A DNA stretch of 64,000 bases, from assembly GCF_008119665.1 (NCBI RefSeq), contig NZ_CP043046.1:186001-250000 (forward strand), given 5' to 3'. The stretch comes from Pigmentiphaga aceris. Its GTDB lineage: Bacteria; Pseudomonadota; Gammaproteobacteria; Burkholderiales; Burkholderiaceae_B. Position 1 is the stretch's first letter; the number at the start of each line of letters is the position of its first letter. Positions 43,200 to 45,639 of this stretch are shown here, piece after piece. Position numbers and translations under genes: made by a program. The notes below the pieces were generated by a model. The model was not told where the DNA came from. It did not search any database and saw nothing but the letters and a program-made list of their open reading frames with translations.

Positions 43200-43584
43200 G
43201 TGCGCGGCCACCCGCTTCCAAGTCACCCCACCACCAAGCAGGAGCGCAGACACGTTGAGTGGCGCTGCTGCGAAAGGCCTCTGAAAAACGGGCAGAGTCG
43301 TGAGCCGTTAAGCCGCTTCGTGGCGACCTAGCCAGCCAATTCCCCAAGGCGAGCCGCATAGCGTTCAAGGATGGCGGCCACCGCACGCCGAGAACCGCGA
43401 CCAGCACCAAGCAGTGAGAAGAACAGCACGCGCCCAAAGGCGGCATGCGCTTTTAACCAAACGTCGTTGAAGGCGTGGGTGGTGGGGCCGTGGCGGCTGC
43501 CCTTCTGGGCAAGGTGGAGGGCGGGAGACCCGACGCCGCAGGCCGGCGGGGCAGACGACGCGGCCCCACCACCCGCGACTGGCT
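43200..43584 (-). repeat. Arm B of the ~1-kb divergent inverted repeat
   Basis: Reverse-complement counterpart of arm A with its own large hairpin: GGGTGGTGGGGCCG (43477-43490) pairs with CGGCCCCACCACCC (43561-43574). The two arms have diverged by many substitutions, including stops in any shared frame, so the arms look like old copies of a dispersed repeat rather than a recent duplication. Confidence 0.8.
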
Positions 43585-43729
43585 ACAAAACCCAAACGCC
43601 CGCAGGAAAGAAGTGACTAACCAAAGCACCAGATCATGAACATCACAAGCAACATCAAGGGAAATCCCGCCCCCGGCGACCAAACCCCCGACTTGCCTGC
43701 GTCATAAACCTGTGCCAGACTTACCCACC

Positions 43730-43882
43730 ATGAAAACCCAAGCATCCCTCACCCCCACCACCACTGCGACCACGCAGCGGGCCGGTGCGCGCGCGTTGAT
43801 GGGTGCCCGCTCGACGACTGCCGCCTCCTCGGCCGCACTACACATCGCACTGCTACACCTAGTGATCGGCTGCCGAGCCTAG
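43730..43882 (+). CDS. Candidate leucine leader peptide upstream of leuA
   Basis: A 50-codon frame (or 27 codons from the in-frame ATG at 43799) ends with the run [15 protein letters not shown]. Within ten codons it has four Leu, two Ile and one Val, and three of the Leu codons are CTA, which is rarely used in this GC-rich genome. The stop (43880-43882) lies inside an RNA hairpin and 80 nt before leuA. This is the layout of attenuator leader peptides such as LeuL. No strong ribosome-binding site is visible at either ATG, which lowers confidence. Confidence 0.6.
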
Positions 43883-43904
43883 GGCTCGTGGTAGTTCGGC
43901 AGCC
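43868..43904 (+). promoter_or_regulatory. Overlapping alternative hairpins, candidate leuA attenuator
   Basis: GGCTGCCGA (43868-43876) pairs perfectly with TCGGCAGCC (43896-43904). The competing 6-bp hairpin CGAGCC-TAG-GGCTCG (43874-43888) uses three of the same bases and has the leader stop codon as its loop. A TTTT run follows at 43921. A ribosome stalled at the CTA codons or sitting on the stop would change which stem forms. Confidence 0.5.
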
Positions 43905-43962
43905 TGTCGCCACACCCGTCTTTTCCATTCGTGTGTCGCCATTCCAGGCAAAAGGTGCAGTC

Positions 43963-45639
43963 ATGATGTTGCAAAACCCCAATACCAAATATCTCCCCAG
44001 CGTTCAGATCGACATCCCCGATCGCACGTGGCCGAACAAGACGATCACCCATCCGCCGATCTGGATGAGCACCGACTTGCGCGACGGCAACCAGTCGCTC
44101 ATCGAACCGATGAACCACGAACGCAAAATGCGTTTCTTCGAACAGCTGGTGAAAATCGGCTTCAAGGAAATCGAAGTCGGTTTCCCCTCAGCGTCGCAGA
44201 CCGACTTCGATTTCGTCCGTGCACTGATCGAAGAAAAGCGCATTCCCGCAGACGTCACCATCGAAGTGCTCACGCAATCGCGTGAAGACCTGATCCAGCG
44301 CACCATCGAATCGCTCGCCGGTTCGCCCCGCGCCATCGTCCACCTGTACAACGCGATCGCCCCGGCCTTCCGCAAGATCGTGTTCAACATGTCGAAAGAG
44401 CAGATCAAACAGATCGCCATCGATGGCACGACACTCATCAAGAAGCTGACCGACCAGCACCCGGAAACCGAGTGGATCTATCAGTACTCGCCGGAAGTGT
44501 TCAGCTCGGCCGAGGTCGAGTTTGCCAAGGAAGTGTGCGACGCGGTGTCTGAAGTGTGGGGTGCCACGCCTACCCGCAAGATCATCTTCAACTTGCCCGC
44601 GACCGTCGAAGGCTCGACGCCGAACGTCTACGCCGACCAGATCGAATGGATGCACCGCAACCTGGCGCGCCGCGACTCGATCATCCTCAGCGTGCACCCG
44701 CACAATGACCGTGGCACGGCCGTGGCCGCTGCGGAACTCGCTGTGATGGCGGGCGCAGATCGCGTCGAAGGCTGCTTGTTCGGCAGCGGTGAGCGTACCG
44801 GCAACGTCGACCTGGTCACGCTTGCCTTGAACCTTTACACCCAGGGCGTGCACCCGGGCCTGGACTTCTCCGACATCGACGAAGTGCGTCGCACGGCGGA
44901 ATACTGCAACCAGTTGCCGGTGCACCCGCGTCACCCTTATGTGGGCGACCTGGTCTTCACCGCGTTCTCCGGTTCGCACCAGGACGCCATCAAGAAGGGC
45001 TTCGCCCAGCAAAAGCCGGATGCCTTGTGGGAAGTGCCTTACATGCCCATCGACCCGGCCGACCTCGGCCGCAGCTACGATGCGGTCATTCGCGTGAACA
45101 GCCAGTCGGGCAAGGGTGGCGTGTCGTACCTGCTCGAACAGGAACACGGCCTGGTTTTGCCGCGCCGCCTGCAGATCGAATTCAGCCGCGCGATCCAGCG
45201 TGTGACGGACGAAGAAGGCCGCGAAGTGACTGCTGCCGACGTCTACACGATCTTCCGCCAGGAATACCTGGAACGCGACACGCCCTTCCACTTCGTGCGT
45301 CACCGCATCGCCGGCGAAGAAGGCGAGGTGAAGGTGGAAGTCGACCTGAGGACGGAAGGTCAGGTCAAGACGGTTCATGCCAGCGGCAACGGCCCGATCG
45401 ATGCCTTCGTGCATGCCTTGAACGCTGACATCGAACTCATCGACTATCACGAGCACGCCATTGGCAAGGGTGCCGATGCGGCTGCCGCCTGCTATGTGGA
45501 ACTGCGTGTCGGTGGCTCGCCGGTAGGCTTCGGTGTAGGCGTGGACCGTGACATCGTGACCGCCTCGTTCAAGGCGGTGCTCAGCGCCTACAACCGCCTG
45601 GCACCGAGCGCCCAGTCGCAGGAAAAGCGCGCCGCCTGA
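43963..45639 (+). CDS. leuA: 2-isopropylmalate synthase
   Basis: LeuA condenses acetyl-CoA with 2-oxoisovalerate, the first step of leucine synthesis. The 558-aa protein is the long LeuA form: a TIM-barrel catalytic domain with the metal/substrate motif [11 protein letters not shown], the second motif [10 protein letters not shown], and a C-terminal regulatory domain for leucine feedback. The ATG at 43963 has AAAGG upstream; the GTG at 43888 would run through the hairpin region. It is a single gene followed by a terminator, and probably regulated by the leader peptide upstream. Confidence 0.97.

Follow-up and report, generated by a model that had tools for sequence, protein, structure and literature searches.

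A Leucine-Rich Leader With an H-Type Pseudoknot Upstream of leuA in Pigmentiphaga aceris: A Probable Proteobacterial Element of the LEU Kind

Introduction

In enteric bacteria, a leucine-rich leader with rare CTA codons, leuL, lies upstream of the leucine genes, and the corresponding attenuator is represented in Rfam by the family Leu_leader, which we take to be RF00512.

A further system has been described before actinobacterial leuA as the LEU element, which, in the portion of the study drawn on here (Seliverstov et al. 2005, PMC1262725), combines a leucine-rich leader, a pseudoknot and a base stem formed between the Leu run and the Shine-Dalgarno region. According to the same portion, mutations in the leuA leader of S. 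coelicolor had some effect, inconsistent with classical attenuation, and the conclusion given there is that mutations of the leucine codons were without influence on regulation. The mechanism is left open in this part of the paper, the favoured partner being a helicase-like regulatory protein (orthologues of ML1624); outside Actinobacteria, no homologues of that protein were found at the level used. For Streptomyces lividans, an excerpt of PMC8079986 gives the LeuL1 leader as MRFGLLLLSCRGEGL followed by a stop and reports that a typical Rho-independent terminator is lacking, and leucine-rich leaders before leuA are mentioned for C. glutamicum and M. tuberculosis in excerpts of PMC4046766 and PMC3526491. 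A proteobacterial LEU element has not been found by us in the literature, an earlier mention in Vitreschak et al. 2004 or Lopatovskaya et al. 2010 being possible.

The stretch of DNA analysed here, called the window in the following, comprises 64,000 nt of Pigmentiphaga aceris (NZ_CP043046.1, positions 186,001 to 250,000), and all coordinates count from its first letter. For the region before its leuA, the original prediction had proposed a leucine leader peptide that controls leuA by ribosome-mediated attenuation.

Leader Frame and Pseudoknot of the Window

The following features have been assigned, all on the + strand:

43799 to 43882, +: leader open reading frame; an in-frame ATG at 43730 is an alternative longer start, both being candidate starts
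43838 to 43861, +: leader Leu codons (CTA 43838, CTG 43850, CTA 43853, CTA 43859)
43849 to 43860, +: predicted Leu-run strand of a base stem, ACTGC (43849-43853) and ACCT (43857-43860), in the minimum-free-energy and the centroid fold
43868 to 43876, +: pseudoknot strand A (Gly-Cys-Arg codons), partner of C, extendable to 43878
43874 to 43888, +: stop-codon hairpin CGAGCC-TAG-GGCTCG, present in the window, not conserved
43880 to 43882, +: leader stop codon TAG, in the A-B loop, 12 nt past the start of strand A
43888 to 43892, +: pseudoknot strand B, GTGGT, partner of D
43896 to 43904, +: pseudoknot strand C, TCGGCAGCC, partner of A
43909 to 43913, +: pseudoknot strand D, GCCAC, partner of B
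43953 to 43961, +: leuA ribosome-binding region AGGTGCAGT, predicted base-stem partner of the Leu run
43963 to 45639, +: leuA, 2-isopropylmalate synthase of the long type (TIGR00970 above cut-off)

The short frame predicted before leuA has proved to be real, except that its peptide ends in LVIGCRA and the stop, four residues later than originally assigned. Three of its four Leu codons are indeed CTA (43838, 43853 and 43859), and this codon is as rare in the genome as had been claimed, with one CTA among the 151 Leu codons of four window genes. The perfect 9-bp stem proposed between 43868-43876 and 43896-43904, which reaches up to 11 bp with one G-U, has likewise been recovered, is conserved, and shows compensatory changes; its 5' strand is formed by the codons of the final GCRA. 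Two pairings had been overlooked earlier, the strand pair B:D and that of the Leu run with the Shine-Dalgarno region of leuA. Because of B:D, the stem is part of an H-type pseudoknot, of which the last codons of the leader constitute strand A.

Taken by itself, the window sequence provides modest evidence for this structure, and conservation serves as the main evidence. The fold of 43860-43935 has a z of -3.63 (1 of 200 shuffles as good), the longer fold of 43800-43965 (166 nt) is ordinary with a z of -0.80 (40 of 200 shuffles as good), and the pseudoknot scores 42 vs a best of 41 among 60 shuffles. No ribosome-binding site of the leader is evident in the window sequence, and no sigma-70-like promoter has been found in 43400-44100. 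The window has no Rfam match at gathering score, the search of 43700-44000 at E up to 10 has returned two chance-level matches and nothing else, and NCBIfam has given no match for the two window leader forms and the leaders of two relatives.

Regarding the gene itself, the window LeuA is 75-78% identical to those of ten congeners (over ∼500 residues), which are 81-99% identical among themselves, and it is equally close, with 76-77% over ∼500 residues, to LeuA of Achromobacter and Bordetella. Judged from these identities, the window leuA may either have branched off early or have been transferred.

Conservation of the Leader Element

Loci have been drawn by LeuA, taking the best 30 loci from 61 genomes (LeuA match in 60 of the 61) and a further 80 among the matches listed from named genome records, 110 loci in all. 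The pattern of stem, loop and downstream pair B:D has been found at 80 of them; L064, where the contig starts inside leuA, and L103, whose stem was judged a chance one, were dropped, and the remaining 78 collapsed to 75 distinct loci. The alignment A1 contains 65 of 71 distinct fragments, with the near copies L007, L008, L055 and L087 as well as L064 and L103 left out, and with L024 and L068 lengthened by 4 bases.

Conservation in close relatives had been set as a test beforehand, and the element is present in all 11 genomes of the window's genus that were searched. Within the window's family, 36 of the genomes sampled have a long-type leuA orthologue, and 34 of these carry the element, the carriers comprising 29 pattern-matched loci and five (L136, L137, L140, L141 and L142) scored by the RNA model R1 alone; the two exceptions, L138 and L139 in genomes of 0.8 and 1.7 Mb, have no element match. 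The same element occurs at a Cupriavidus plasmid locus (L112), and the leaders of many relatives end in forms of LLLPIGCRA and a stop. The alignment of relatives has shown what the original prediction had looked for, a short frame with CTA-rich Leu codons (75 loci) and stem pairs with changes on both sides.

The model R1, for which the A:C pairs alone were taken from A1, matches at E up to 0.01 in 15 of the 200 genomes scored for the order and in 4 of the 299 scored for the phylum, rates which are lower bounds because sets of such size have been scored with strict filters. Each matched genome has a single matching place, and leuA lies close downstream of it in 14 of the 16 distinct matched genomes, the leuA motif being absent near the match in L132 and L134, both with E above 0.001. 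The distance from strand D to the leuA start codon ranges from 26 to 172 nt.

Over the 65 sequences of A1, 98.4% of the cells are paired, a value reached by none of 500 shuffles, and slid partners as a control are paired to 27-58%; six of the 14 pseudoknot pairs show changes on both sides. Strands B and D vary little, with one pair changed on both sides in 2 sequences, and their 100% pairing over A1 is partly given by construction, since the selection of loci demanded the B and D patterns. The test has been repeated without this demand, though with a G-rich start still required of stem A. Here the stem A:C has been found at 82 of 110 loci, and at 58 of these 82, vs 16.7 expected, a complement to the loop 5-mer that ends 3 nt before C lies downstream. 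The same test gives 39 vs 19.7 expected at offset 4, 21 vs 13.3 at offset 5, and values below expectation at offsets 6-11, while B:D occurs at any of the offsets 2-4 at 78 of the 82 loci, a count without matched expectation.

The window's pseudoknot pattern has not been found in Paraburkholderia, Burkholderia and several gammaproteobacterial loci, and a general pseudoknot search in ten Burkholderia-like or other pattern-less loci has given nothing in eight and a chance-level result in L106. At L086, a different candidate pseudoknot overlaps the leuA start region. Five loci of Paraburkholderia, Burkholderia and Pandoraea (L078, L083, L085, L086 and L098) have leaders ending in LLLARSTGLGLLLRAS and a stop, or similar, with CTA codons around an inverted repeat resembling CTAGCCCG...CGGGCTAG; the window's pattern has not been found there.

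Leucine Codons of the Leader

Counting the 14 codons before strand A at each of the 75 distinct loci, the leader frame has 341 Leu among its 1050 codons, whereas the other two frames have 70 and 81 among as many. CTA accounts for 185 of these 341 Leu codons (54%), vs 3 of 2812 (0.1%) in leuA, of which up to 500 codons each have been counted. Given these numbers, the CTA-rich leader frame has the pattern expected of a sensor that is read by the ribosome on rare leucine codons. The originally proposed leucine-codon sensor with a translated leader before leuA has thereby gained support, and leucine sensing by the translated leader can be regarded as well supported. An in-frame ATG is present upstream at all 75 loci. 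The leader stop lies 12 nt past the start of A at 59 of the 75 loci, as in the window, and 18 nt past it at 4 more; it falls into the A-B loop at 63 and inside A at one, and at 11 loci the frame runs past strand B.

A Second Pseudoknot Leader in the Family

Five genomes of the family carry a paralogous leuA with a larger pseudoknot upstream (L143-L147; genomes G023, G020, G016, G021 and G002), in which A:C comprises 10-15 bp and B:D 9-11 bp, and the score of which is reached by 0 of 40 shuffles at each of these loci. The frame that runs into this pseudoknot before a long-type leuA contains 4-5 Leu in 10 residues. Although the layout of A:C and B:D is the same as in the window element, the loop is larger, B:D is longer and the sequence is another; R1 matches L143 and L144 at E 0.3-0.4 only, and L145, L146 and L147 not at all up to E 1. 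This second leader suggests that a layout of leader and pseudoknot is common among long-type leuA genes, with the exception of the loci of Paraburkholderia, Burkholderia and several gammaproteobacteria, where it has not been found.

A second Leu-rich short frame has also been noticed in Oxalobacteraceae (L048, L050, L053, L059, L063 and others), at a distance of ∼200-290 nt before leuA. It ends in LLARA or LLARV and a stop, lies upstream of the pseudoknot leader, and has the appearance of tandem leucine leaders.

Predicted Pairing of the Leu Run With the leuA Shine-Dalgarno Region

For the window, the predicted stem between the Leu run and AGGTGCAGT comprises 9 bp. A folding model has been used to calculate how much energy it takes to open the ribosome-binding region of leuA in three states, in which the RNA is free, the ribosome is at the stop, or the ribosome is on the Leu run. 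The window gives 16.8, 15.4 and 9.0 kcal/mol for these states, and 17 near relatives give 13.4, 12.2 and 6.5 kcal/mol, vs 7.6, 7.5 and 6.3 kcal/mol when Shine-Dalgarno segments of unrelated loci are placed in the same 17 loci as a control. The difference between free and stalled states exceeds that of the foreign segments with a post hoc p of 1.5e-5, the 17 loci (11 of the genus, five of Achromobacter and Bordetella, one other family member) having been picked after the result for all loci was seen, with L044 (Achromobacter aloeverae), which lacks the pairing, left out. Among the 17, the effect is small in L002 and L003, both from the genus, and in L033 the stop and the stalled state do not differ.

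Over all 75 loci, the opening costs are 8.2, 7.8 and 5.8 kcal/mol (free, stop, Leu run), and in 26 Oxalobacteraceae no effect has been seen (5.7, 5.9 and 5.5 kcal/mol). Over the 75 loci, the pairing itself barely beats permuted partners, 379 of 10000 permutations being equally good, and better pairing (-14.1 vs -13.2) is obtained with a segment shifted 45 nt upstream. A narrower pairing test has given p 0.0025 vs unrelated segments in 43 Alcaligenaceae-type loci, p 0.34, hence no significance, in the 29 dissimilar ones, and the opposite direction in the 26 Oxalobacteraceae, the two groups having been set by genome names and likeness and being loose for some members (L029, L039). As a general property of all loci, a stem of Leu run and Shine-Dalgarno region appears weak in view of the permutations, the better shifted segment and the p of 0.34.

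Proposed Mechanism and Alternatives

In the most likely mechanism, as modelled here, a ribosome stalled on the Leu codons would prevent their pairing with the leuA Shine-Dalgarno region. The ribosome would translate the short leucine-rich frame, the last codons of which form strand A. With leucyl-tRNA in short supply, it would wait on the CTA codons and cover the Leu run, the pseudoknot staying folded ahead, and the leuA Shine-Dalgarno region would be free for translation of leuA. With leucine plentiful, it would continue to the stop codon, which lies in the loop of the pseudoknot, and then leave, upon which the free Leu run would pair with the Shine-Dalgarno region and block translation of leuA. 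The computation itself shows the conserved frame end, the CTA codons, the pseudoknot, the location ahead of leuA and the lack of an intrinsic terminator. We infer the stalling, the direction of the regulation and an output at translation initiation, the folding effect appearing in 17 near relatives chosen post hoc and not in Oxalobacteraceae. As a whole, a LEU-element-type leucine-sensing leader in which the position of the ribosome controls the pairing of the leuA Shine-Dalgarno region has, in our estimate, about an even chance of being correct. The conclusions on S. coelicolor given in the Introduction speak against it, as do the results that neither a leader ribosome-binding site is evident nor a sigma-70-like promoter has been found.

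The same sensor could instead act through Rho, if a ribosome at the stop unfolded the pseudoknot and exposed untranslated C-rich RNA, and a stalled ribosome kept Rho away. An output of this type would agree with the lack of terminator-like sites between A and the leuA start, of which none has been found at the 75 loci (0.9 expected from shuffles), and with the composition of the RNA lying between D and the Shine-Dalgarno region, which is C-rich and G-poor at C 0.34 and G 0.20 vs C 0.33 and G 0.29 in leuA (75 loci); it would also serve the Oxalobacteraceae, where sequestration of the Shine-Dalgarno region is not seen. However, in some leaders D is followed by the start codon after as little as 26-40 nt, and the strong pairing of Leu run and Shine-Dalgarno region in most of the genus would be left unexplained, and we regard the Rho output as rather unlikely. 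For the window's genus, our best guess at the output is blocking of the Shine-Dalgarno region, as the folding model depicts it; in other groups the output may be a different one, for example through Rho.

Alternatively, the pseudoknot might be the binding site of a protein or small molecule and the leader frame secondary. The bases in and around the pseudoknot are strongly conserved, the frame passes strand B at the 11 loci given above, and the relevant part of PMC1262725 favoured a regulatory protein (ML1624 orthologues) for Actinobacteria. A pure RNA aptamer would not be expected, however, to go along with CTA at 54% vs 0.1% and with enrichment of Leu in the leader frame alone, and given that the same part of the paper found no ML1624 homologues of the level used outside Actinobacteria, that protein could not be needed here, if the elements are the same. 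We consider this explanation improbable.

Classical attenuation of the leuL type, in which the ribosome on the leader decides whether an antiterminator or an intrinsic terminator forms, would account for a leader rich in Leu and in rare CTA codons, and for the stem in the RNA ahead of leuA, and it is the logic on which the original prediction was built. The T-run, in which the prediction itself saw its weak point, exists as CTTTT ∼17 nt past the stem, and the stop-codon hairpin at 43874-43888, which was to compete with the stem, is present in the window with all six pairs. Yet this full pairing is confined to the window among 59 loci, with 5 of 6 pairs in three more, which rules the hairpin out as a conserved switch. 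Furthermore, the 75 loci are devoid of terminator-like sites as stated above, no intrinsic terminator has been found on the + strand of 43400-44100, 5 or more T within 8 nt after C occur at 2 of the 75 loci, no Rfam match has been obtained, and the stem belongs to a pseudoknot. The terminator/antiterminator part of the prediction is not supported, and leuL-type attenuation appears very improbable.

That a chance frame and a chance stem without function have been met here, for which the ordinary 166-nt fold and the missing evidence of a leader ribosome-binding site would speak, is in our view already refuted by the conservation in the family (34 of 36 sampled genomes, with compensatory changes) and can be practically dismissed.

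Comparison With Known Systems

With the enteric leuL attenuator, the window element has the Leu-rich leader and the rare CTA codons in common, but it has neither a terminator-like site nor a conserved antiterminator hairpin nor an Rfam match, and it has a pseudoknot instead. Its likely relative is the actinobacterial LEU element rather than the enteric attenuator. As far as PMC1262725 is drawn on here, a Leu-rich leader frame before leuA and an H-type pseudoknot are common to both, the two helices being represented in the window by 43868-43876 with 43896-43904 and 43888-43892 with 43909-43913; a pairing of Leu run and leuA Shine-Dalgarno region is predicted in both as well, with support in the 17 near relatives chosen post hoc and none in Oxalobacteraceae or after similar loci are collapsed, so that this base stem is not general. 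The window element differs by its proteobacterial host, other stem sequences and a longer leader. The S. lividans LeuL1 leader, as reproduced in the excerpt of PMC8079986, has a Leu run, then Cys-Arg and the stop, all ahead of leuA, in likeness to the window leader; its leaderless transcription is a feature reported there for S. lividans.

Four actinobacterial loci from plasmid-collection records (L113-L116, of Microbacterium, Nonomuraea, Nocardia and Tsukamurella) allow a direct comparison. Their leaders, such as MQFGLLLLSCRDESSD and a stop, have a short likeness to window-type leaders in the Leu run and Cys-Arg, with mostly CTT and CTC codons in contrast to the CTA of the window's element, and the stop lies in, or touches, the A-B loop. 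The strands A:C and B:D are of other sequence, and their pseudoknot scores are reached by 0, 0, 0 and 1 of 60 shuffles, the last value being that of Tsukamurella (L116). Since R1 has no match at these four loci up to E 1, the likeness is one of layout, which makes no case for common descent. The leuA of a Streptomyces plasmid (L117) and that of Halomonas (L119) have no such leader by eye and no R1 match. At a Rhizobium locus (L118), the layout has been found with a loop limit of 10 nt, scoring 47 vs a best of 46 in 40 shuffles, and not with a limit of 12 nt.

The layout in Proteobacteria, together with the CTA bias of 54% vs 0.1%, suggests that the sensor is the translating ribosome, and on these grounds the helicase-like actinobacterial protein proposed in the cited part of PMC1262725 is unlikely to be needed in Proteobacteria. 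Tentatively, and with some doubt, one may postulate an ancient class of leucine sensors common to the long-type leuA of Actinobacteria and Proteobacteria, in which the position of the leader ribosome, and not a terminator or ligand, would set the pseudoknot and the anti-Shine-Dalgarno stem, and in which, in the window's genus, the sensing codons would themselves be the anti-Shine-Dalgarno strand. The proteobacterial loci provide natural compensatory variants, outside Streptomyces and mycobacteria, on which pseudoknot-based attenuation can be tested. They also reveal a gap in the RNA family libraries, as no Rfam family has been reached at gathering score in the 11 loci scanned. We assign the window element as a probable proteobacterial form of the LEU-element kind, a little-understood class.
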